This document shows, piece by piece, positions 3,422 through 26,718 of a DNA stretch of 26,983 nt (positions are counted from its first letter, which is position 1; every line of letters begins with the position of its first letter). Origin of the DNA: a virus. The translations under genes were made by a program, and so were the position numbers. The notes beneath the pieces are model-generated. The model worked only from the letters and a program-made list of their open reading frames with translations, had not been told where the DNA came from and did not search any database. The stretch is from IMG/VR virus record IMGVR_UViG_3300008459_008570, positions 1 through 26,983 of that record; one strand, 5' to 3'.

Positions 3422-3646
3422 ATGAAAGCTATTGTATGGAGTAAGTATCACTGCCCCTATTGTGATCAGGCTAAAGCATTGCTAAAGCAAAAAGGTATCC
3501 CATTTGAAGAAAAGAAAATTGGTGATGGATATACTAAAGAAGAATTACTAGAGGCTGTTCCTACCGCTCGAACAGTTCCACAAATCTTTATTAACGAACA
3601 ATTGATTGGCGGTTTTAATGAACTGAAGGCACACTTAAATGGCTAA
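3422..3646 (+). CDS. grx: Glutaredoxin
   Basis: Small thiol-disulfide oxidoreductase, 74 residues, with the classic CPYC active site at residues 11-14, the cis-proline segment TVPQIFI near residue 53 and the glutathione-site GG motif (IGGFNEL). Position directly after nrdA-sod-nrdB indicates that it re-reduces the C-terminal cysteines of NrdA, like T4 NrdC. Shine-Dalgarno AAGGAA lies 7 bases before ATG. Its 3' end overlaps the next gene by 8 bases. Cytoplasmic; no other domain. Confidence 0.95.
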   Translation: MKAIVWSKYHCPYCDQAKALLKQKGIPFEEKKIGDGYTKEELLEAVPTARTVPQIFINEQLIGGFNELKAHLNG

Positions 3647-6725: not shown

Positions 6726-8099
6726 ATGAACCCTACATTTAATGACAAACTATTTGCATATCTGGTACTATTAAGCGGACTATTAATTTCCGGAGTAGCA
6801 GAGTATTACTCTATTATGGGGTTAATTGCTATCTATCCAGCGGCTGTGATACCTGTTGTAATAATGGGAGTTGTACTTGGACTAGGTAAAATTAGTGCCA
6901 CTATCTGGCTTAAACAAAATTGGAGTTGGAGTCCGTTCTTTGTCAAGGCCTATGTATTGCCTGCTATTGTTGTACTAATGCTAATTACCAGTTTAGGTGT
7001 GTTTGGATTTTTGAGTAAAGCACACTCTGATCAAAGTCTAGTGTCGGGCGATGTTCAAAGTAAAATTGCTGTATATGATGAAAAGATTAAAACTTCGAAG
7101 GATAATATAGATGCTAATCGTAAAGCACTCAAACAGATGGATGAAGCTGTGGATCAAGTCATGGGTCGCAGTAACGATGAAAAGGGTGCCGACAAAGCTG
7201 TACAAATACGTCGGGCCCAACTCAAAGAACGTGCTCGTTTACAAGCAGAAATCCAAGCCGAACAGAAAACAATTAGTAACCTTACTGAAGAACGGGCGCC
7301 TATTGCGGCTGAAGTCCGAAAGGTAGAAGCAGAAGTTGGTCCGATAAAATATATAGCACACTTGATCTATGGTGAGAACCCAGATGCTAATCTTCTAGAA
7401 AAAGCCGTTATATGGGTAACCATACTAATCGTTGTTGTGCTAGATCCCCTTGCAGTTATCTTGTTACTAGCAAGTCAATACAGTTTCCAAAGATTTCGAG
7501 AACAACAAGAAGAACAAGATGTTAAAGATTGGTTTACCGCCGGAAGAGAGAGAGCTCGCCAGTTAGACAAAGAAACCCCTGATCCTTATGTTGCGGATGT
7601 AGGAGAGAAACCTACAGAAGAAGAAAAACAAGAGATTGAACTTCATCAGCCCGAAACAAATAACGTTACAACTGTTACCTCTACAGTTAAAGAAATTACA
7701 CCGCAATCAGAAAGACCTATAGCAGAATCCCACCCATATCTAAATAAACCGTTTATACATTTTACTGATATGAAACCGCTGGCTTACAGAGCAGAAATGC
7801 CTTCTAAAGAAGAACTAAAATCTGTAGGAATCGATGTTGCTGATCCTGTTAAAGAAACATTAGAAGATAAAGTAAAAAAATATGGATATAGTGCAGACGG
7901 TAGCACTATTCGTATAGGCAACGGCGATATCTATACAAAAGAAGAATTTGACAAGTTAATGAATACTAGTTACGTTCAAAACGAAGAACAAGACCAAAGC
8001 GGTGTTTGGAATAAAGTAATTTCTGAACAAGAATATAGACAAAAAGCAGAAGAAAAATTAAAAAATGAGTTTAACAATAACCCTAATAACGCCACCTGA
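6726..8099 (+). CDS. Phage membrane protein with long central coiled coil
   Basis: 457 residues. Hydrophobic segments at about 9-27, 31-54, 73-97 and 226-250 predict four membrane spans. Residues about 105-205 form a charged heptad-rich coiled coil (IAVYDEKIKTSKDNI, QAEIQAEQKTISNLTEERA) between spans 3 and 4. The remaining 200 residues are hydrophilic and acidic with repeated KEE/KEEL motifs, probably cytoplasmic. I recognise this architecture from T4-like aquatic phages without a known role; inner-membrane remodelling, superinfection control or lysis timing could all fit. A GATAAATA sequence lies 6-13 bases before ATG. The next gene starts inside its 3' end. Confidence 0.8.
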   Translation: MNPTFNDKLFAYLVLLSGLLISGVAEYYSIMGLIAIYPAAVIPVVIMGVVLGLGKISATIWLKQNWSWSPFFVKAYVLPAIVVLMLITSLGVFGFLSKAHSDQSLVSGDVQSKIAVYDEKIKTSKDNIDANRKALKQMDEAVDQVMGRSNDEKGADKAVQIRRAQLKERARLQAEIQAEQKTISNLTEERAPIAAEVRKVEAEVGPIKYIAHLIYGENPDANLLEKAVIWVTILIVVVLDPLAVILLLASQYSFQRFREQQEEQDVKDWFTAGRERARQLDKETPDPYVADVGEKPTEEEKQEIELHQPETNNVTTVTSTVKEITPQSERPIAESHPYLNKPFIHFTDMKPLAYRAEMPSKEELKSVGIDVADPVKETLEDKVKKYGYSADGSTIRIGNGDIYTKEEFDKLMNTSYVQNEEQDQSGVWNKVISEQEYRQKAEEKLKNEFNNNPNNAT

Positions 8100-8469
8100 T
8101 ATCTTCGAAAATGACAGTACTGGAATCTTTCTTATAAATCTCACAGAAGAAGAGCAAGACGAAGCGACTAAATGGCTTGGAGAGTCTACTTTAGATCTAG
8201 ACGTTAACATTTATTTCTCACAAAATGAACCATACCCTGTATGGTTTTTGCATGCCTTGGCCTCTTCAAAACATAAGTATATTAACCTTGATAACACACA
8301 CGGTATGGTGGAACTTTTAGCCAGTTATATATTAAGCAAAACATCTACTTATTATTCACTAACTGATAAAAATAAACAAGCCGTACTGGATCACATTAAT
8401 GTAAACAGAGTCGAAAGTGTCAAGGACTTTTTAGAAAGAGTGTTAAGTGACAGTCAACAAAAACAATGA
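8065..8469 (+). CDS. Conserved phage protein, function unknown (134 aa)
   Basis: Begins MSLTITLITPPDIFENDSTG, continues IFLINLTEEEQDEATKWLG and carries a mixed alpha/beta body with a C-terminal helix (VESVKDFLERVLSD). I recognise the TPPD-x-F and NLTE-x-EQ pattern from T4-like phages, where the gene is conserved but unassigned. ATG lies 35 bases inside the preceding gene; its 3' end overlaps clpX by 23 bases. Continuous overlap from the membrane protein to clpX means the genes are cotranslated. Confidence 0.75.
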   Translation: MSLTITLITPPDIFENDSTGIFLINLTEEEQDEATKWLGESTLDLDVNIYFSQNEPYPVWFLHALASSKHKYINLDNTHGMVELLASYILSKTSTYYSLTDKNKQAVLDHINVNRVESVKDFLERVLSDSQQKQ

Positions 8470-9688
8470 ACACCATTGCGATTTCTGTGGAAAAAGCAAG
8501 CAGGACGTAGAAAAACTCATTGTGAGTGAAAACAGCGCAATCTGTAATGATTGTGTTGATCTTTGTGTCGATATACTCAAAGATGAAAAAATTAAAAAAT
8601 TTCCGTTAGATGATTATAAAACAGTATATAATCCTGTAAAGATTAAAGACTATCTAGACGAGTATATTATTGGCCAAGATGAAGCAAAGATAAGTTTAAG
8701 TGTTGCAGTATGTCAACATTTCAAGCGAATTACGCATCATAGGTCTGATATTGAATTAGAAAAGACTAACGTTCTTTTGCTTGGTCCTACTGGTTGTGGG
8801 AAAACATTTCTTGCAAAAAAACTTGCCGATTATTTGCAAATTCCGTTTGCCATATGCGATGCAACTGGAATTACAGAAGCTGGTTATGTGGGTGATGATG
8901 TGGAAAGTGTTCTTATAAGATTGCTAGCCAACGCTGACGGCGATATAGAAAAAGCCCAACGAGGTATTGTTTATATAGATGAAATTGATAAACTTGCTCG
9001 TAAGGGCGAGAGTATGAGCATTACCCGAGATGTAAGTGGAGAAGGAGTCCAACAAGGTCTGCTCAAAATGATCGAAGGTACAGTTATGCGATTGCCTTCT
9101 AGCGATAAACGTAAAAATCCCAAAGGGGATATGTTAGAAATGGATACTACTAGTATCCTTTTTATTTGCGGCGGAGCATTTGTTGGGCTTGACAAAATAA
9201 TCCAAAAACGTAAAGATGCTAACAGTATCGGGTTTAATAGTAAGGTAACAAGTAATAACGAATCTAGTACATACTATAATCAAGTTACAACTAAAGATCT
9301 TATTACATTTGGAATGATTCCCGAATTTATTGGACGATTTGGAATTATTACCAATGTAGAAGAGCTTAAAACTGAACAACTTGTACAAATTCTTAAAGAA
9401 CCTAAAAACAGTCTAGTAAGACAATACCAATATCTTTTTGAAATTGACGAAATTGAACTAGACTTCGAAGACGATGCATTTGAACAAATTGCCATTAAAT
9501 CTAAAGAACTTAAAACCAATGCTCGTGGTCTTAAAAATATTTTGGAAAAAGTCCTATTACCCTATCAATTTGATTCAATTAATCTAGTTGAAAGAGGTTT
9601 AACCAAAATTATTATAAGTAAAGAGTCTGTAGATGGAAATCCAGCCAAGCTAGTGTTTAATAAAAAGAATGACAAAAAATCCACGTAA
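8447..9688 (+). CDS. clpX: ATP-dependent unfoldase ClpX
   Basis: 413 residues, near the bacterial length of about 420. Order: N-terminal zinc domain with Cys11, Cys14, Cys33, Cys36; AAA+ module with Walker A GPTGCGKT (113-120), pore loop GYVGDD (146-151), Walker B IVYIDEID (174-181), arginine-finger segment EFIGRF (293-298), sensor-2 ARGLKNILE (359-367). The ClpP-docking tripeptide IGF is present (261-263), so it should be able to dock on host ClpP and redirect degradation. The zinc domain, where SspB-type adaptors bind, is kept. Start is GTG at 8447, overlapping the upstream gene; no ATG precedes the zinc domain. bS21 starts inside its 3' end. No clpP gene is in the window. Confidence 0.95.
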   Translation: MTVNKNNEHHCDFCGKSKQDVEKLIVSENSAICNDCVDLCVDILKDEKIKKFPLDDYKTVYNPVKIKDYLDEYIIGQDEAKISLSVAVCQHFKRITHHRSDIELEKTNVLLLGPTGCGKTFLAKKLADYLQIPFAICDATGITEAGYVGDDVESVLIRLLANADGDIEKAQRGIVYIDEIDKLARKGESMSITRDVSGEGVQQGLLKMIEGTVMRLPSSDKRKNPKGDMLEMDTTSILFICGGAFVGLDKIIQKRKDANSIGFNSKVTSNNESSTYYNQVTTKDLITFGMIPEFIGRFGIITNVEELKTEQLVQILKEPKNSLVRQYQYLFEIDEIELDFEDDAFEQIAIKSKELKTNARGLKNILEKVLLPYQFDSINLVERGLTKIIISKESVDGNPAKLVFNKKNDKKST

Positions 9689-9902
9689 AAAAGGTGTAGT
9701 TGTAGAAGTGAAAGATGGGAACATCAATTCTGCCCTTAAAAAATTCAAGAGAAAAATGGACGACAGTAACAAACTAGTCGACCTTCTGAGAAAAACAGCT
9801 TACGAAAAACCTACAGAGGAACGTAAACGTAAAAAAAGTGCCGCACGTAATAGGTGGCTTAAAAAGTTATCATCTGATAGTTTACCAAAGAAATTGTTTT
9901 GA
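9669..9902 (+). CDS. rpsU: Ribosomal protein bS21
   Basis: 77 residues matching bacterial bS21: N-terminal VVVEVKDGNINSALKKFKRK, then YEKPTEERKRKKSAARNRWL with the invariant YEKPT box and the basic C-terminal helix. bS21 sits on the 30S platform near the mRNA 3' end/anti-Shine-Dalgarno region and helps initiation. Phage-encoded bS21 is known from many aquatic viral genomes, including pelagiphages, and can join host ribosomes. Here it overlaps clpX by 20 bases and the next gene by 4 bases. A role in favouring phage mRNAs is inferred. Confidence 0.94.
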   Translation: MTKNPRKKGVVVEVKDGNINSALKKFKRKMDDSNKLVDLLRKTAYEKPTEERKRKKSAARNRWLKKLSSDSLPKKLF

Positions 9903-10657
9903 AAACTTGTTTTATATACCAACCCCAAGGTGTTGGGGATATTATATTCATTCAAAAAGTTGTACACCACTATAAATCTTTAGGGTACAAGATTGTTTTC
10001 CCATTGTATCCTTATTTTATTTGGCTTAAGACTTATCTAGCTCAAGACGGAGTAGAGTTTCCTATGCTAGGCGGAGATAGGAAAATTTTAGAACCTTTCG
10101 ATAACAGTGATAAATTTTTCTATCTTATGGGCAGTACATATGCCCTATTTAGAAAACCAGTTCATGCTGTAGATTTTGTTTATCTATCTTGCGGTCCGGC
10201 AACATTAGATGACGAAGAAATGATGACAGCAAAATACAGCGTAGCCGACATCGATTATGAAGGTTGGCAAGACTATGTTAAAATTAATAGAAATAAAGAA
10301 AAAGAAGACGAGTTATTTTATAATGTTCTAGGACTTCGTGATGACTCCGTTTTCACGCTGGTTAATGAATATTGTAGTAGCCATAAGATTGATATAGAAC
10401 CGGTAGGCAACACTGTCTATATGAAAACTATCACCGGATATACTTCTTTCGATTGGATCAAAGTAATTGAGCGGTGCAGTCGACTTATTACAATTGATAC
10501 AAGTATTCCAATCCTAGCCGAAGTCTATCTACCCAAACATGTACCCTGTCATCTCATCAATCGATATACTCCGGCCACTTTTGTAGATCTTCCAAAAATC
10601 TTTACTAGATTAAATTGGCAATATTGTATTACTCCTGCAGATATAAAGATTGACTAA
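9899..10657 (+). CDS. GT-B-like glycosyltransferase, resembling heptosyltransferases (GT9)
   Basis: 252 residues. The opening YQPQGVGDIIFIQKVVHHYK has the G-(V/L)-GD loop of GT-B transferases of the heptosyltransferase type, and the C-terminal RLITIDTSIPILAEVYLP resembles the usual donor-domain segment with its Asp/Ser. Shorter than GT9 enzymes (about 320-350), so a reduced version. Start is TTG at 9899, overlapping the bS21 stop (TTGA); no ATG gives the GVGD loop. Together with the second GT-like gene at 11.2 kb and the HldE-like kinase at 17.2 kb it suggests surface glycan modification. Substrate unknown. Confidence 0.7.
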   Translation: MKTCFIYQPQGVGDIIFIQKVVHHYKSLGYKIVFPLYPYFIWLKTYLAQDGVEFPMLGGDRKILEPFDNSDKFFYLMGSTYALFRKPVHAVDFVYLSCGPATLDDEEMMTAKYSVADIDYEGWQDYVKINRNKEKEDELFYNVLGLRDDSVFTLVNEYCSSHKIDIEPVGNTVYMKTITGYTSFDWIKVIERCSRLITIDTSIPILAEVYLPKHVPCHLINRYTPATFVDLPKIFTRLNWQYCITPADIKID

Positions 10658-10678
10658 CCTTAAATAATTTGCTATAAT
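10650..10678 (+). promoter_or_regulatory. Sigma-70 type promoter, possibly producing a leaderless mRNA
   Basis: TTGACT at 10650-10655, 17-bp spacer, TATAAT at 10673-10678. Expected transcription start is about 10685, at or inside the ATG (10684) of the exonuclease gene, which has no Shine-Dalgarno upstream. The -35 box overlaps the last codons of the preceding gene. Confidence 0.75.
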
Positions 10679-10683
10679 AGTTT

Positions 10684-11214
10684 ATGGCAAAACATTTAAT
10701 GATCGACATGGAGACTATGGCTGTCTCCCCAAGCGCAGTTGTCCTTTCTTTGGGCGCTGTACATTTTAATCCCTACGGCAATGGATACGGAGATAAAATT
10801 TATTTCCGTATTGACCTTGACGATCAAGATAAGTTGGGTAGAGAAATTGATCCCAATACTCTAGAATGGTGGGCTAAACAAGATCCTGCTATTATGGAAG
10901 AAGCATTTAGCCCGGACAATCGTGTTCCTCTAGCAGATGCAATGGATCAGTTCCATAAGTTTGCTTGGGGATGTGATGCATTTTGGTCACATGGCGCAAC
11001 TTTTGACCTAGTTATTATCGAGAACATTTACAGACAATTAAATAAACCACTTCCGTGGAGTTATTGGCAATTGCGTGATACTCGCACTATCTTTGATCTA
11101 GGATATGATCCAGATATGCCTCAAGGCGGGAAGCACGATGCCCTGCAGGATGCTATTCGGCAGGCAGTAGGTGTTCAAAACATCTACTCTAAACTTAAAA
11201 TTAGACCGAGATGA
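10684..11214 (+). CDS. DEDD-type 3'-5' exonuclease (DexA/Rv2179c-like)
   Basis: 176 residues, RNase H-like fold. Exo I motif DMET (residues 8-11, Asp and Glu ligands), Exo II in HGATFDLVIIE (Asp), Exo III KHDALQDA (His and Asp), which makes it DEDDh. EWWAKQD in the middle is typical of the exonuclease group related to T4 DexA and Rv2179c. It may degrade host DNA or trim RNA; the nucleic acid specificity cannot be read from sequence. ATG at 10684 follows a -10 box by only 5 bases and has no Shine-Dalgarno; a second in-frame ATG at 10699 would give MIDMETM. Its stop overlaps the next ATG (ATGA). Confidence 0.88.
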   Translation: MAKHLMIDMETMAVSPSAVVLSLGAVHFNPYGNGYGDKIYFRIDLDDQDKLGREIDPNTLEWWAKQDPAIMEEAFSPDNRVPLADAMDQFHKFAWGCDAFWSHGATFDLVIIENIYRQLNKPLPWSYWQLRDTRTIFDLGYDPDMPQGGKHDALQDAIRQAVGVQNIYSKLKIRPR

Positions 11215-18012: not shown

Positions 18013-19908
18013 ATGAGCAAAGTCATCGGTATCGATTTAGGTACAACAAATTCATGCGTAGCCGTTATTGAAAACGGTGTCACAAAAGTAATCGAAAATG
18101 CAGAAGGCGCACGTACTACCCCTAGTATTGTTGCTTATGCTAACGACGAAATCCTAGTAGGTGCAAGCGCAAAACGCCAAGCAGTTACAAATCCTAAAAA
18201 TACAATATATGCATCAAAGCGTTTAATTGGACGTAAGTTTACAGAACAAGCAGTCCAAAAAGACATTGATCTAATGCCTTACAAAATTATCCAAGCAGAC
18301 AATGGTGATGCTTGGGTAGAAGCTAACGGTGAAAAGTTAGCACCTCCGCAAATTTCGGCGGAAGTTCTGCGTAAAATGAAGAAGACTGCCGAGGATTATT
18401 TAGGACATGATGTTACACAGGCCGTTATTACAGTGCCTGCATACTTTAATGACCAACAACGTCAGGCAACTAAAGATGCTGGACGTATTGCAGGGTTAGA
18501 AGTTTTACGTATTATTAACGAACCAACCGCGGCTGCATTGGCCTACGGTGTTGATAAACAAGATAAGAAGGACCGCAAGATTGCAGTATACGACCTAGGT
18601 GGCGGTACATTTGATGTTTCAATTATTGAACTTGCTAATATTGACGGCGACAAACAAATTGAGGTCTTGTCAACAAACGGTGATACGTTCCTAGGCGGTG
18701 AAGACTTTGACCAACGCATTATGGACTTTCTAGTTGATGAGTTTAAGAAAGACAATGGTATCGATCTTAAGAAAGACATGTTAGCTCTACAACGTCTTAA
18801 GGACGCCGCTGAAAAAGCTAAAATTGAATTGTCTAGTTCTGCACAAACAGATGTTAACCTACCATACATCACAGCAGACACGAGCGGTCCTAAACACATG
18901 AATGTTAAGATTACTCGAAGTAAGCTAGAGCAACTAGTTGAAGATCTTATTCAACGTTCTATTGAACCCTGCCGTATAGCCATGCAGGATGCAGGTGTAA
19001 GTGCAAATGACATCGACGAAGTTATTCTAGTTGGTGGTCAAACACGTATGCCTAAAGTACAAGAAGCAGTTGAGAAGTTGTTTGGCAAGGCTCCACGCAA
19101 GGATGTTAATCCAGACGAGGCAGTTGCCGCAGGTGCCGCAATTCAAGGCTCGGTATTAGCTGGTGATCGCACTGACGTTCTATTGTTAGACGTTACTCCG
19201 TTAAGCCTAGGTATTGAAACACAAGGTGGTATTATGACCAAGTTGATTCAGAAGAATACAACTATTCCTACTAAAGCATCTCAAGTGTTTTCAACAGCAG
19301 AAGATAATCAACCTGCCGTTACAATTAAAGTTCTACAAGGCGAACGCGAGTTTGTACAGTACAACAAACTACTAGGAGAATTTAATCTAGAAGGTATTGC
19401 TCCTGCCCGTAGAGGACAACCACAGATTGAAGTTACGTTTGACATTGATGCAAATGGTATTATGAAAATCAGTGCCAAAGACAAAGGTACAGGTAAAGCT
19501 AATAACATTACTATCAAGAGTGATAGCGGTTTAAGTAAAGAAGAAATTGAAAAGATGATTCAGGATGCCGAGGCCAATGCAGAATCAGATAAAACCCGTC
19601 GTGAACTTATTGACCGTAGAAACACAGCAGAAAGTTTTATGAACGAAGCAAAAACTGATCTAGAAAAATATGGTGATAAAATTACTGAAGAAGAGAAAAC
19701 AAAGCTCGAACAAGCTCTTAAAACTCTCGAAGAAACAGTTAAAGGTGAGGACGCTGAAAAGATTCATGCCGACACAATGACATTCATGGAAAGCTATAAT
19801 CCTCTTACTGCCGCTAAACATAAAGCTGAAAATCCAGAACCTGAAAACAAAGGTGATGGCAAAGATAAAGATGACGTAGTTGATGTAGAAGCTACTGAAG
19901 TTAAGTAA
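18013..19908 (+). CDS. dnaK: Chaperone DnaK (Hsp70)
   Basis: Full-length Hsp70, 631 residues. ATPase domain with [12 protein letters not shown] (6-17), the [12 protein letters not shown] segment near 170, [10 protein letters not shown] near 195, and LVGGQTRMP near 340; interdomain linker [13 protein letters not shown]; substrate-binding domain, helical lid, and an acidic tail [12 protein letters not shown] typical of bacterial DnaK. The segment [20 protein letters not shown] resembles betaproteobacterial DnaK, hinting at the donor or host. No dnaJ or grpE is in the window, so it would use host cochaperones. Shine-Dalgarno TAAGGAG. It could aid capsid folding or DNA replication. Complete dnaK genes in phages are uncommon. 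Confidence 0.97.
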
Positions 19909-19988: not shown

Positions 19989-20429
19989 ATGCAAGTAAAA
20001 TTAATTGATGCAAACGCTCTTAACCAATTGAATAGAGCACTTATAGGTTTTGATCGCTTATTTGAGGATTTTGAAAATCGTTGGGCAAATTCAGTCCAAA
20101 CAAATTATCCCCCTCATAATGTTTTAAGGACAGGAGATAACACTTACGAAATTCAATTGGCAGTAAGTGGTTTTGAAAAGAATGAAATTTCTGTAGAAGT
20201 TGACCAAGATCGTTTAGTCATCATAGGCGAACGTCTAAAAGACGAAGATACTCATGTTCAATATCTACATCGTGGATTAGCAACACGAGATTTCCAAAAA
20301 ATATTTCCGTTGGCCGAGCACGTTGAAGTGTGTAGCAGTTCTATTAAAAACGGTATTCTAACTGTTTACCTGGAAAGAATTGTGCCAGAAACACTCAAAC
20401 CGCGTAGGATTGAAATTTCAGGAGAATGA
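19989..20429 (+). CDS. Small heat shock protein Hsp20, IbpA-like
   Basis: 146 residues from ATG 19989, which has AAGGAGA 6 bases upstream; an in-frame TTG at 19917 would add a leader that reads through hairpins and is unlikely. N-terminal IGFDRLFEDFENR, an alpha-crystallin domain from YEIQLAVSGFEKNEISVEV to ILTVYLERIVPE, and a C-terminal RRIEI with the I-x-I motif used for oligomer assembly. The order and the ending PETLKPRRIEIS match proteobacterial IbpA. It holds unfolding proteins for DnaK, whose gene lies directly upstream. Hsp20 genes are common in T4-like cyanophages. Confidence 0.94.
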   Translation: MQVKLIDANALNQLNRALIGFDRLFEDFENRWANSVQTNYPPHNVLRTGDNTYEIQLAVSGFEKNEISVEVDQDRLVIIGERLKDEDTHVQYLHRGLATRDFQKIFPLAEHVEVCSSSIKNGILTVYLERIVPETLKPRRIEISGE

Positions 20430-20503: not shown

Positions 20504-20806
20504 ATGGCAGAAACTATTGTTAAAACTAGAGACCTAGTCGTAACTAAAATTGGAGAACCTTGCAAATATAAAGTGCTGTTGTTCAATGACGACTATACCC
20601 CTGTAGATTTTGTAATTATACTCTTAATGTCTGTTTTTAAACATACTGAAGAGTCAGCTAAAACTATCACAATGAAAATTCATAATGAAGGTTCAGGAGT
20701 TGCTGGTGTATACACCTATGAAATTGCAGAACAAAAGGCATTAGATGCCACTATGATTTCTCGCAATAACAACCATCCGCTACAAATCAAACTAGAAGAA
20801 GAGTAA
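20504..20806 (+). CDS. clpS: ClpS, N-degron adaptor of the Clp protease
   Basis: 100 residues, full ClpS core. Pattern: YKVLLFNDDYTPVDFVIILL (22-41) with Asn28/Asp29/Asp30 of the N-degron pocket, IHNEGSGVAGVYTYEIAEQKA with the pocket His60, and the PLQIKLEEE end. The pocket gatekeeper that is Met40 in E. coli is Val34, which may widen N-terminal residue choice. ClpS delivers substrates to ClpAP, not ClpX; no clpA is visible here, so it would act on host ClpA and either redirect or compete. Shine-Dalgarno AAAGGA 8 bases before ATG. Confidence 0.94.
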   Translation: MAETIVKTRDLVVTKIGEPCKYKVLLFNDDYTPVDFVIILLMSVFKHTEESAKTITMKIHNEGSGVAGVYTYEIAEQKALDATMISRNNNHPLQIKLEEE

Positions 20807-20816
20807 TTTTTAGTTC

Positions 20817-20824
20817 TATAAATA
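20817..20824 (+). promoter_or_regulatory. T4-type late promoter before the heme oxygenase gene
   Basis: Exact TATAAATA 11 bases after the clpS stop. Transcription from it would start near 20830, keeping the Shine-Dalgarno GGAGG (20830-20834) but losing the 5' arm of the overlapping hairpin. Confidence 0.6.
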
Positions 20825-20842
20825 TCCTTGGAGGATATTTAT
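20818..20842 (+). promoter_or_regulatory. 11-bp hairpin hiding the heme oxygenase ribosome binding site
   Basis: ATAAATATCCT (20818-20828) is perfectly complementary to AGGATATTTAT (20832-20842), loop TGG. It covers the Shine-Dalgarno and the first two bases of the ATG. In read-through mRNA from clpS the start would be closed; in mRNA starting at the late promoter the 5' arm is missing and the start is open. Confidence 0.75.
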
Positions 20843-21380
20843 GAGTCTAAAAGAAATTACAAAAGAAGTACACCAAGCCGCAGAAGAAACGCATTTTATG
20901 AAATCTGTTTTTAAGAAACAGATGACAACAGAAGTTTGGTGCGATTATACATATAATAAAATGCTTTGGTACGGGGCTATTGAATGCAAAGCCCGTGCCG
21001 AAGGTCTTTTAAATGACTTGCCAGGTATCGAAAGAGCCTATTATCTTTATCAGGATTTTAAAGATCTAAAAGGTGATAGAGATTATCCAAAATTTACACC
21101 TGGAGCAATTGAATACCACCGTTACATACTAGACCTAGAACCAGGTAAAGTATTGGCACACCTATACACATGGCATATGGGTGATCTGTTCGGCGGGCAG
21201 ATGATCAAAAAAATGCTTCCACCACCTCATCGAAATCTTGAATTTAAAGATGTTGAAGGTCTTAAAACTGCGCTACGTGCTAAATTAACAGACGACCTTG
21301 GAGACGAAGCTATTTGTTCTTTTAACTGGGCCATACGAATTATGAATGAGTTCGCTCCAAGATTACCTGCTTTGGAATAA
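20841..21380 (+). CDS. ho: Heme oxygenase, HO-1 family
   Basis: Opens heme to biliverdin, CO and iron using reduced ferredoxin or another reductant. 179 residues, short against 215-240 for cyanobacterial and cyanophage enzymes; the missing part is at the C-terminus. Proximal ligand His11 lies in KEVHQAAEETHFM, matching the HO-1 first helix; the distal helix has the flexible Gly pair in HMGDLFGGQMIKK (about 113-125) with the conserved Asp. Cytoplasmic. First gene of a three-gene set with an alpha/beta hydrolase and a bilin reductase. Expression probably late because of the promoter/hairpin arrangement at its start. Confidence 0.93.
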   Translation: MSLKEITKEVHQAAEETHFMKSVFKKQMTTEVWCDYTYNKMLWYGAIECKARAEGLLNDLPGIERAYYLYQDFKDLKGDRDYPKFTPGAIEYHRYILDLEPGKVLAHLYTWHMGDLFGGQMIKKMLPPPHRNLEFKDVEGLKTALRAKLTDDLGDEAICSFNWAIRIMNEFAPRLPALE

Positions 21381-21394
21381 CTTGGACACGATTA

Positions 21395-21973
21395 ATGATT
21401 GTTTATATTCACGGAGCCAGCGCAACGGCCGAAAGTTTTAATTATATAAGAGAACATGTTAAAGGTCCAAACATCGCTATAGAATATGATAGTACTAATG
21501 GATTTAGAGATAACCTAGAAGAAATGAAGAAGGTTATACAAAAATATAGTAATGTTATATTTGTTGCACATAGTTTGGGAGGAATATATGCTCTTCATCT
21601 AGCAAATACTTTCCCTGATAGAGTCAAAGGGGCAATAACATTAAGTACGCCCTATGGCGGAGCAGAAGTAGCAGATTACGTCAAATATTTTTTACCATTT
21701 AGTAGACTTTTAAGGGACATAGGACCTAGTAGTTGGCCTATGAATTCTCTTAAAAAAATAAAAGTACAACATCCCTGGACAAATGTTATAACCACTGTAG
21801 GTAAAAGTCCATGGTTTAATGTGCCAAATGACGGAGTAGTAACTATATCAAGTATGAAACATAGGGACGATATGGAACATATCGAAATCGACCTTAATCA
21901 TTATGAAGTTGTTATAAGTCAAACAGCAGTAAACATTATAAACAGTAAGATAAAAGAGATACGACATGAGTAA
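21395..21973 (+). CDS. Alpha/beta hydrolase, lipase/esterase-like
   Basis: 192 residues. Nucleophile Ser60 in AHSLGG (G-x-S-x-G variant with Ala first), oxyanion segment YIHGAS at the N-terminus, probable acid Asp146 in PNDGVVT and catalytic His169 in LNHYE; triad complete. The STPYGG segment is typical of lipase or acylhydrolase relatives such as PGAP1-like proteins. No signal peptide. It lies between the heme oxygenase and the bilin reductase and overlaps the latter by 8 bases; whether it acts on a tetrapyrrole ester or a lipid is unknown. Confidence 0.85.
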   Translation: MIVYIHGASATAESFNYIREHVKGPNIAIEYDSTNGFRDNLEEMKKVIQKYSNVIFVAHSLGGIYALHLANTFPDRVKGAITLSTPYGGAEVADYVKYFLPFSRLLRDIGPSSWPMNSLKKIKVQHPWTNVITTVGKSPWFNVPNDGVVTISSMKHRDDMEHIEIDLNHYEVVISQTAVNIINSKIKEIRHE

Positions 21974-22637
21974 AGTATGGAATAAAATTGAATCACTGGC
22001 TAAACATTTTGAAGAACAGTTTAATCGAACTGGGGAACCGCTAGAGGACGGAATTGGTTCTGACTACGAATGGCACAATCAATTATGGACAAGTCCTGCA
22101 TATCGTAGAGCGCATTTAGAAATTGTTGACCATAGAGAATCACATAAACTTTACATAGTACATTGTACAATTTTCCCTCACCTTAACGATCCTAGTCCAA
22201 TATGGGGGTTTGATGCAGTATGTGGACCAAATAAAATTACAGGTGCATTTCATGATTTTAGCAACGGCGGAGATCCTACACATCCAATGATGCGTTGGTT
22301 TGCTGAAGAACGAAAAAGAGACGGCTGGCATAAACCTCGAGAATTACCTCCCTGGGCAAAAGCTATTTTTAGCCCTAGTATGATTGCCGCAGGTAACATA
22401 CACGAGGGCGACGAATTAGATGACCTTTGTAAGATTGCACTACAGAATCTAGATTATTACCTAGAAAATGTAGGATTTGCTCAGCAAGATGTTGCCAGCT
22501 TTGAAATGGCACAAAATAGATATTGTTACTACCAAAAACAGAACCCACATGTAGTTCGTAGTATGGTTAGCATGGGTATAGATGAGACTAAAATGAAGCG
22601 TTTTGTTAACGAAGTGCTGTTCCCCGAAATAGCATAA
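21966..22637 (+). CDS. Ferredoxin-dependent bilin reductase (PcyA/PcyX-like)
   Basis: Reduces biliverdin to a phycobilin with electrons from ferredoxin. 223 residues, usual for phage members. Alignable to PcyA by eye: YRRAHLE, IVHCTIFP, PIWGFDAVCGPNKITGAFHD, RELPPWAKAIFSP and RYCYYQKQN near the end. The PcyA catalytic set Glu76/His88/Asp105 corresponds to Glu52/His66/Asp83; spacing His-Asp is identical (17), and two residues are inserted between Glu and His. PcyX of oceanic phages is described with Asp in place of that Glu, so this enzyme differs. The conserved Asp of the C-terminal N-D motif (Asp220 in PcyA) is Pro194. Product, phycocyanobilin or phycoerythrobilin, cannot be decided. Needs host or distant phage ferredoxin. 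Confidence 0.9.
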   Translation: MSKVWNKIESLAKHFEEQFNRTGEPLEDGIGSDYEWHNQLWTSPAYRRAHLEIVDHRESHKLYIVHCTIFPHLNDPSPIWGFDAVCGPNKITGAFHDFSNGGDPTHPMMRWFAEERKRDGWHKPRELPPWAKAIFSPSMIAAGNIHEGDELDDLCKIALQNLDYYLENVGFAQQDVASFEMAQNRYCYYQKQNPHVVRSMVSMGIDETKMKRFVNEVLFPEIA

Positions 22638-24142: not shown

Positions 24143-24640
24143 ATGAAAAAAATTATTGTGTCTATGGGTATTCTGCTGAATATATCGGCCCTTACCTTTG
24201 CCGCAGAACTACAACATAGTTTTAATAGCCCTTCCTTTTCGGGAGCAGGTTTTAGTAGTCATATACTAACAATTAAACAATTAGAAGATCAGCAAAAAGA
24301 TAAAAATAAAAATACAGCTGATGCTCTAAAGGCTGCGGCAGAACGTGCCGAAGCAAACACGCCAGAAGCAAGATTCCTTGCTAATTTGGAAAATCGTATC
24401 TATACAGGCATTGCCGACAAGATGTATGATAGCATCTTTAAGTCTGGCAATCCATGTACCATTGGGGCGCCGTGCGGAACTATTCCCGACATGGGCGGCA
24501 AGTTTGTAAGCTGGACATTGGGCAACGACGGTTGGATCACAGTGACCATTACAGACAAGGCTAACACAGGTTTAAACTGTGCATCTACAAGTCCTTACTC
24601 TTGTTTAACAATCCGTGTACCGGAAAATTCATTTAATTAA
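24143..24640 (+). CDS. csgF: CsgF-like curli assembly protein
   Basis: 165 residues with a signal peptide ending near ALTFA/AEL (cleavage about residue 20). The mature start LQHSFNSPSFSGAGFSSHIL matches the CsgF region that inserts into the CsgG pore (E. coli: F-x-F-x-N-P-N-F-G-G). The middle helix FLANLENRIYTGIADKMYDSIF also fits CsgF. Residues 45-70 add a charged helix (QQKDKNKNTADALKAAAERA), longer than in E. coli CsgF (138 residues). Four cysteines (CTIGAPC, CASTSPYSC) suggest disulfides in the periplasm or outside. Followed 9 bases later by csgG. Confidence 0.88.
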   Translation: MKKIIVSMGILLNISALTFAAELQHSFNSPSFSGAGFSSHILTIKQLEDQQKDKNKNTADALKAAAERAEANTPEARFLANLENRIYTGIADKMYDSIFKSGNPCTIGAPCGTIPDMGGKFVSWTLGNDGWITVTITDKANTGLNCASTSPYSCLTIRVPENSFN

Positions 24641-24649
24641 GGATAGATC

Positions 24650-25870
24650 ATGAAATTAACAATCATATCATTGTCTATCGTAATTCTGTTATCAGGATGT
24701 GCTACTGGTTCTGCCATGCGCGAAAAGATAACGGGCAAACAATTTGACGAACCTGTAGTAGAACAAAACGTATATCTTAATAAAGATTCTAATAAACTAG
24801 TGCCACCGGAAGGGGGCCCAATCCATGTAGCAGTCTATGGATTTACAGATAAAACAGGGCAACGTAAAAGTATGCCAAACATTGCCAGTTTAAGTTCGGC
24901 TGTAACACAAGGTGCTGATGCTTACTTGATCAAGGCGCTACAAGACGTCGGTGATGCCCGTTGGTTTAAAGTATTAGAACGTGTGGGTCTAGATAACCTT
25001 ATTAAAGAGCGTCAAATGATTCGTCAGATGCGCGAGCTATATCAAGGAAAAGATGCTAAACCATTACCTCCTATGATGTTTGCAGGTATGATCTTTGAAG
25101 GTGGAATTATCGGCTATGACAGTAATACACTTACTGGAGGTAGCGGTGTAAGATTGCTAGGTATCGGTGCAAGCACACAATATCAAAGCGATACAGTTAC
25201 GATTAATTTACGCACAGTTTCAGTAAGCACAGGTGAAGTATTAACCAGTGTAACTGTAACTAAAACAGTTTTAAGTTACATGGATAAGTTTGGTGTTTTA
25301 AAATTTATTGATAGCGGAACCACAAGTGTAGAAGGCGAAATTGGCGGTAGCATAAATGAAAGTATTAATAAAGCAACAACATTAGCTATCCAAGCGGCCG
25401 TTGTAGATACCATTAGAGAAGGTGCTCGAAAGGGACACTGGAACTTTAAAAAGGAGAAAACAAATGAGTTGGTTCAACCACAAACCTCACAAACACCCGA
25501 AAGAGCCCCAGAGCCCCAGCCTGCCGCACAGACAGAGCCCAGCAACGCAGAGGGCAATGGAAAAGGCCAAAGAGTCGAGCCCAAGCCAGAAGTTAAACGA
25601 GAGCAAGAAGAATTAACAAAGACACCTATACTTACTCCACCAATAGATAAAGTTGAAGTAAAAGAAACTGTTACTACTAATATACAATATCTAAAAGAAG
25701 ACTCGTATGTATATAAAGATCAAAATGAAAAATCACAGAGAACCTGGCTATTAAAGAAGGGCCAAGAGTTTTCATCTACCAACGCCAATGCTGGCTGGGT
25801 AGCCGTTACCACCAAAGATGGTAAAAAAGGATTTGTTAGAGAAGAGGTGCTTACGTCTAACAAACCGTAA
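24650..25870 (+). CDS. csgG: CsgG-like outer-membrane secretion lipoprotein fused to an SH3-like domain
   Basis: 406 residues. Lipobox LSGC with lipidated Cys17. Residues about 45-270 follow CsgG: HVAVYGFTDKTGQRK, DARWFKVLERVGLDNLIKER, GGIIGYDSNTLTGGSGVRLLG, and NLRTVSVSTGEVLTSVTVTK, which form the periplasmic cage and the beta-barrel hairpins of the nonameric pore. CsgG normally ends here (277 residues in E. coli). This protein continues with a Pro/Gln/Glu-rich linker (about 272-330) and a beta-rich end (about 345-402: YVYKDQNEKSQRTWLLKKGQ, then WVAVTTKDGKKGFV) resembling a bacterial SH3 domain. The linker DNA also carries a second reading frame. Shine-Dalgarno AAGGA. Confidence 0.9.
   Translation: MKLTIISLSIVILLSGCATGSAMREKITGKQFDEPVVEQNVYLNKDSNKLVPPEGGPIHVAVYGFTDKTGQRKSMPNIASLSSAVTQGADAYLIKALQDVGDARWFKVLERVGLDNLIKERQMIRQMRELYQGKDAKPLPPMMFAGMIFEGGIIGYDSNTLTGGSGVRLLGIGASTQYQSDTVTINLRTVSVSTGEVLTSVTVTKTVLSYMDKFGVLKFIDSGTTSVEGEIGGSINESINKATTLAIQAAVVDTIREGARKGHWNFKKEKTNELVQPQTSQTPERAPEPQPAAQTEPSNAEGNGKGQRVEPKPEVKREQEELTKTPILTPPIDKVEVKETVTTNIQYLKEDSYVYKDQNEKSQRTWLLKKGQEFSSTNANAGWVAVTTKDGKKGFVREEVLTSNKP
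25464..25616 (+). CDS. Nested small ORF overprinting the csgG linker (50 aa)
   Basis: In the +1 frame relative to csgG, ATG 25464 follows a perfect AAGGAG (25451-25456) at 7-base spacing and runs 50 codons to TAA 25614. The product is very basic and rich in Pro, His, Lys and Ser (begins MSWFNHKPHKHPKEPQSPSL). Such short W-F-x-x-(K/R)-P-rich proteins remind me of small genes of T4-like aquatic phages, which would make it the older frame, but I cannot verify that. The csgG frame is open throughout, so a sequencing error is not needed to explain it. Confidence 0.45.
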   Translation: MSWFNHKPHKHPKEPQSPSLPHRQSPATQRAMEKAKESSPSQKLNESKKN

Positions 25871-25903
25871 TTCTGTGTAAGCGCGGGGGAAAGAAAAAAT
25901 AAA

Positions 25904-25947
25904 AGGTTATAACCTAGGAGACCAGATAGAAAAATAATAATCTATCT
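25904..25947 (+). promoter_or_regulatory. Palindrome and hairpin-bridged ribosome binding site before the curlin gene
   Basis: A 12-base palindrome AGGTTATAACCT (25904-25915) is followed by the Shine-Dalgarno TAGGAG (25915-25920), then by a 7-bp hairpin AGATAGA/TCTATCT (25924-25930 with 25941-25947, 10-base loop). No other Shine-Dalgarno lies nearer to ATG 25957; folding the hairpin shortens the spacing from 36 to about 12 bases. TATAAAAA at 25947-25954 is a weak late-like motif. Confidence 0.5.
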
Positions 25948-25956
25948 ATAAAAATT

Positions 25957-26718
25957 ATGAAACAGACAAGCCGCAACATTCTAAAAACTGTGGTTTTGGC
26001 AACACTAATGTTATACGGGCATGCCTTTGCCCAAGTTTTACCAGCAGTTGGTCCTAACAAGGTCTTTATTGAGCAGGTAGGAAGCCATAATACAGTCACT
26101 ATCCAACAGGTAGGAACAGGAAATCTAGTAGGTGGCACAGCAAGTGGTGGTCCGAGCAGTAGTAACTATGGAACCATTACTGGTAGCAATAATACCTTAA
26201 CGATGATTCAAACTGGAGATATAAACAAGGCACAATACAATTTACTAGCAAGTGACAGTAATTATACTAGCACCATGTTAGGTAGTAGTAACGAAACTAA
26301 ATTAACTATTGGTGACCTAAACAACGCAACTAATCTACGTGTAAATGTTACAGAAATAGTAACAGGTGATCAAAATAAATTAATACAAAACATCATTGGC
26401 AGCGATATCATCAGCAATATAACAATCACTGGTGATCAAAACGAAGTTAACAAAAATCTGTTAAGCAGTCTCGGCCAAACTACATTGACCGTCACAGGAG
26501 ACAACAACAAGTTTGATGTTGAACAAACTGGCATTGGTGGTGCTGCCGGTCATAAACTAACACAGGTGATCAATGGCGACTTCAACAGTATTGTTACTCA
26601 ACAACAAGGTAGCAATGACACAGTGGTCAACATTGCAGTAAACGGAGGTCACAACACTATCACGGTAAGAACTAGCAATGCGGCAATTGTAAATTCAATG
26701 ACAGCAGTAGCGAGGTAA
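25957..26718 (+). CDS. Curlin-repeat protein (CsgA/CsgB-like amyloid subunit)
   Basis: 253 residues. Signal peptide ending near GHAFA/QVL (about residue 25). The mature part has repeated curlin-type units of the form Q-x-G-x-x-N-x-(V/L)-x-(I/V)-x-Q-x-G: IEQVGSHNTVTIQQVGTGN near the start, then GSNNTLTMIQTGD, GDQNKLIQNIIG, GDQNEVNKNLL, GDNNKFDVEQTG, GDFNSIVTQQQGSNDTVVNI, GHNTITV. Asn/Gln ladders of this kind build the beta-solenoid of curli fibres. Spacing is less regular than in CsgA and several units lack the Gln. Presumed substrate of the CsgG/CsgF pore encoded just upstream. No CsgE chaperone gene is in the window. Confidence 0.85.
   Translation: MKQTSRNILKTVVLATLMLYGHAFAQVLPAVGPNKVFIEQVGSHNTVTIQQVGTGNLVGGTASGGPSSSNYGTITGSNNTLTMIQTGDINKAQYNLLASDSNYTSTMLGSSNETKLTIGDLNNATNLRVNVTEIVTGDQNKLIQNIIGSDIISNITITGDQNEVNKNLLSSLGQTTLTVTGDNNKFDVEQTGIGGAAGHKLTQVINGDFNSIVTQQQGSNDTVVNIAVNGGHNTITVRTSNAAIVNSMTAVAR

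Follow-up and report, generated by a model that had tools for sequence, protein, structure and literature searches.

The purpose that phycobilins serve in phages lacking photosynthesis genes is a standing question, and it is raised again by a short cassette in the virus record analyzed here (the window, 26,983 bases, which is the entire record). Three genes follow one another on the plus strand at 20841-22637: a heme oxygenase (HO; 20841-21380, 179 aa), a lipase-like alpha/beta serine hydrolase (21395-21973, 192 aa) and a ferredoxin-dependent bilin reductase (FDBR; 21966-22637, 223 aa) of the PcyA/PcyX (AX) clade, which comprises PcyA of alphaproteobacteria and phage PcyX. The initial annotation had assigned and placed the genes in this way, and the open reading frames and family matches agree with it, all three frames being intact with catalytic residues present in each. 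HO is separated from the hydrolase by 14 bases, and the frames of the hydrolase and the FDBR overlap by 8 bases (21966-21973, plus strand), as had also been noted, which may allow translational coupling. The identical gene order is found in an independent contig, L033, and therefore an assembly artefact is unlikely. No tRNAs or Rfam RNAs were found within the window.

The two outer genes are readily placed in their families. The HO scores 67.9 bits against PF01126 (cut-off 23, E 1.4e-18) and conserves the proximal His11 and the GD-GGQ signature of the distal helix, here GDLFGGQ, whereas the FDBR scores 67 bits against PF05996 (cut-off 31, E 2.6e-18) and carries Asn193 together with the His88/Asp105 pair expected in the AX clade, present as His66 and Asp83. 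HO is thus predicted to open heme to biliverdin IX-alpha, with release of iron and CO, and the FDBR, using electrons from ferredoxin, would reduce biliverdin to a phycobilin, either PCB or PEB. No photosynthesis genes were found among the window proteins scanned. Likewise, in 30 related records, which may be incomplete, neither reaction-centre (psbA-family) genes nor a phytochrome that could act as bilin acceptor were found, and all phycobiliprotein-like matches fell below the family cut-off, inside large frames; AlaS is present in seven of these records. The proposal that this phage lineage, devoid of photosynthesis genes, encodes a route from heme to a phycobilin is accordingly supported by the protein families, the conserved residues and the 30 records without reaction-centre genes. 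The HO/FDBR pair itself is already known from pelagiphage-like myophages and is ordinary in such phages.

In order to approach the product of the reductase, the residue aligned with Glu76 of PcyA was considered. The closest solved structure to the window FDBR is that of PcyX (PDB 5owg, E 3e-52, 45% identity over 191 residues), but the window enzyme has Glu52 in the Glu76 column, as does PcyA, and not the Asp that is found there in 5owg and in the FDBR of Pelagibacter phage Mosig. Glu76 is described as specific to PcyA, required for 18-vinyl reduction and missing from PcyX (PMC10151467), and the fact that the CB_2 phage enzyme makes PCB has been attributed to the lack of the PcyX residue Asp55 (PMC11480375), which, judging from residue numbering, appears to be the same site. 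In an alignment of 178 FDBRs, which takes in near-copies and two references, this position is occupied by Asp in 100 sequences, Glu in 52, Ser in 13, Asn in 8 and other residues in 5. The Glu-type enzymes form one side of a branch with support 83. The tree built from the 178-sequence alignment has an uncertain root, owing to the great length of its PcyA outgroup branch. Moreover, two phage loci hold tandem FDBRs after HO (L001, 7327-8672; L148, 7325-8666), in both cases with a PcyX-like Asp-type enzyme first and an enzyme with the PcyA-like Glu second. This tandem arrangement appears to be new, as does a phage FDBR that falls in a branch with Glu, as in PCB-making PcyA, where characterized PcyX has Asp. 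The split suggests a division of such phages into possible makers of PCB and possible makers of PEB. Nevertheless, in work by Ledermann et al. in 2018, putting Glu back into PcyX reportedly did not turn it into PcyA, and for that reason Glu52 does not fix the product of the window enzyme. A broader scenario may be built on the same split, namely that within the PcyX clade a phage branch with many freshwater members carries the PcyA-type Glu and produces PCB, a bilin other than that of its marine relatives, that some members have both enzymes in tandem, and that a lipase-like hydrolase occupies, in two lineages, the place of the additional FDBR and acts together with the pigment operon in hosts that do not photosynthesize; we regard this scenario as unlikely.

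The gene in the middle of the cassette encodes a protein that matches Abhydrolase_6 (E 9.7e-7) and has the features of a lipase-like enzyme, namely a nucleophile elbow, an alpha/beta fold and a Ser60-Asp146-His169 triad that is invariant across 25 representatives. In its AlphaFold model (pLDDT 91) the nearest folds are small bacterial lipases of the Proteus type, and a signal peptide is not apparent. The family is large in viral contigs, where a first scan returned 96 relatives, whereas roughly 85,000 genomes of bacteria and archaea yielded a single match, on a 92-kb contig; the hydrolase belongs to a phage-restricted, lipase-like family, found almost only in phages. Heme, biliverdin and phycobilins have free propionates and no ester bond. 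Chlorophyllase and bilin esterase were considered as identities and rejected, as neither a sequence match nor a top-ranked fold match was obtained and the pathway is without an ester. The hydrolase would most likely act on a host lipid or host acyl ester and not on a bilin.

A survey of gene order bears directly on whether this enzyme belongs to the pathway. Relatives of the three proteins were gathered from viral contigs and mapped by profile HMMs. HO is followed by the FDBR in 145 of 172 distinct HO/FDBR loci, and in 135 of these 145 pairs the two genes overlap or directly abut, so that no further gene could fit between them. Among the matches listed by two alignment-based scans, which gave the best 80 out of over 550 relatives, the window and L033 alone place the hydrolase between HO and FDBR (2/145 pairs), and further cases may exist. 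In these loci the three genes do not behave as a conserved bilin operon. The hydrolase is encoded far from the cassette in six of the 29 other HO/FDBR phage records, and so more often than inside it; most of these distant copies adjoin a conserved protein roughly 90 aa long, and the one in L402 also a desaturase. The initial annotation had suggested that the hydrolase performs a third pathway step and had called for a survey of whether it always accompanies the pair; in these loci it does not, and the suggestion is not supported. Instead, the HO|FDBR junction accepts varied cargo genes: the second FDBR of L001 and L148, two fatty-acid desaturases in L221, where HO, both desaturases and FDBR form an overlapping series (8001-10744), a DUF2452 protein in L224, and small ORFs in others.

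Based on these observations, we consider it probable that a known phage HO-FDBR bilin operon, of the pelagiphage/freshwater-myophage kind, carries a separately evolving lipase-like hydrolase as cargo in its HO|FDBR junction. The hydrolase would have entered the junction, where it would share the operon and possibly be translationally coupled to the FDBR, and it would most likely cut a host lipid or acyl ester; the enzyme activities, the co-transcription, the lipid substrate and the purpose during infection are all points that we infer. One observation runs counter to simple cargo: the hydrolases of the window and L033 are sisters (support 97/92), yet the HOs beside them have different origins and do not form one clade (AU p 0.0005). 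This hints at more than accident, in that a hydrolase sub-branch either kept its place in the cassette while HO at least was exchanged, or moved between cassettes, and since a single clade for the FDBRs of the window and L033 is not rejected (p 0.29), hydrolase and FDBR may have travelled together. It is on account of these sister hydrolases beside HOs of different origin that we keep, at very low probability, the idea of a true third step, in which the enzyme would free or modify heme or bilin through ester or thioester cleavage, or remove a bilin adduct. Its position between HO and FDBR with the 8-base overlap and the recurrence of this gene order in L033, an independent contig whose HO is diverged, speak for such a step, but the hydrolase is missing from almost all HO/FDBR pairs among the matches listed and occurs elsewhere without HO/FDBR beside it, the bilin pathway offers no ester, and the fold is that of a lipase. 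A role in the bilin pathway is hence unlikely, and a probable false lead concerning a pathway enzyme is removed.

At the other extreme, the hydrolase might be a neutral passenger kept by chance and without function in infection, as its rarity at the junction and the several unrelated cargos found there would allow; however, the intact triad in 25 diverged representatives and a partner 73% identical imply selection on the protein, and we find this view hard to credit. Somewhat less remote, although still improbable, is an operon that couples lipid remodelling with bilin synthesis, for example with desaturase, HO and FDBR all using ferredoxin and the hydrolase supplying or trimming acyl chains. 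Of 32 non-redundant hydrolase loci, 10 have a fatty-acid desaturase gene within 5 kb, compared with just 4 of 103 FDBR loci (Fisher p 8e-5), a comparison that draws on different phage lineages; the enrichment near hydrolases favors such coupling, together with the HO-desaturase-desaturase-FDBR series of L221 and a published scaffold with desaturase, FDBR, HemO and AlaS (PMC11480375), whereas the scarcity near FDBRs argues against it. In addition, neither the window nor the examined stretch of L033 yielded a desaturase, and a motif search found no ferredoxin-motif ORF in the window and none convincing near FDBR loci. The link between hydrolase and desaturase is one of guilt by association. In several loci (L101, L107, L092) the genes for isocitrate lyase, hydrolase and desaturase overlap or almost do, and in L101 (5372-7871) and L107 (6723-9286) they form a tight phage operon, which suggests lipid use during infection.

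With the hydrolase regarded as cargo, the purpose of the bilin operon may be sought in its surroundings. Upstream of it, on the plus strand, lie genes for DnaK (Hsp70; 18013-19908, PF00012 E 1e-260), which begins a conserved block, the small heat-shock protein Hsp20 (19989-20429, PF00011 E 7e-17) and, directly upstream of HO, the adaptor ClpS (20504-20806, PF02617 E 1e-28). Upstream sequence was long enough for comparison in 124 distinct HO/FDBR loci, of which 97 have ClpS immediately 5' of HO, 103 have Hsp20 within 3 kb upstream and 75 have DnaK within 4 kb upstream. Among the best phage-labelled matches to the window DnaK, several come from short or unannotated records that may represent bacterial contamination. 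A ClpX-like AAA protein with a C4 zinc finger is encoded in the same record (8447-9688) and makes up, with ClpS, DnaK and Hsp20, a phage proteostasis set. The record also encodes an Fe/Mn superoxide dismutase (1771-2310, PF02777 E 2e-24), between two ribonucleotide reductase subunit genes, and a glutaredoxin (3422-3646). As the operon follows DnaK-Hsp20-ClpS in a record with superoxide dismutase and glutaredoxin, our best guess is that it would serve heme turnover at times of stress during infection. A T4-late-promoter-like motif upstream of HO, TATAAATA (20817-20824, plus strand), is a weak lead; as a conserved signal it was rejected, being found in only 4 of 143 related loci and not over-represented in the window. 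The heat-shock neighborhood, the variable-cargo junction and the Glu/Asp split now offer sharper handles on why such phages make bilins.

Compared with known systems, the window shows both shared and distinct traits. Its reductase shares the conserved His/Asp pair with PcyX (PDB 5owg), a PEB synthase, from which it differs at Glu52. Mosig (EXVC030M) is the isolated phage with the closest FDBR, about 40% identical (42% in tblastn), and its cassette is preceded by 2OG-Fe(II) oxygenases where the window has DnaK-Hsp20-ClpS. The hydrolase has the fold and Ser-Asp-His triad of Proteus mirabilis lipase and other small Abhydrolase_6 lipases, but at about 15% identity, with 192 aa, no apparent secretion signal and a distribution almost only in phages. 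On the 3' side of the cassette, an ORF of unknown family precedes three genes (24143-26718), those for CsgF and CsgG and one whose product begins with a signal-peptide-like segment and contains three stretches of curlin repeats (PF07012). According to PMC9004378, csgGF but not csgA/B occurs in the Melnitz phages and in described pelagimyophages, and the curlin-repeat protein is therefore a candidate curli subunit of a phage, encoded next to its pore. Finally, in the phage HemO-PcyX and vAlaS-HemO-PcyA/X cassettes, including that of Mosig, HO is likewise followed by an AX-clade FDBR, and those described in PMC11480375, whose main text does not mention DnaK, Hsp20 or ClpS, also reside in myophages related to pelagiphages and may include a third gene; there, however, the third gene is AlaS, whereas in the window it is a lipase-like hydrolase placed between the pair.
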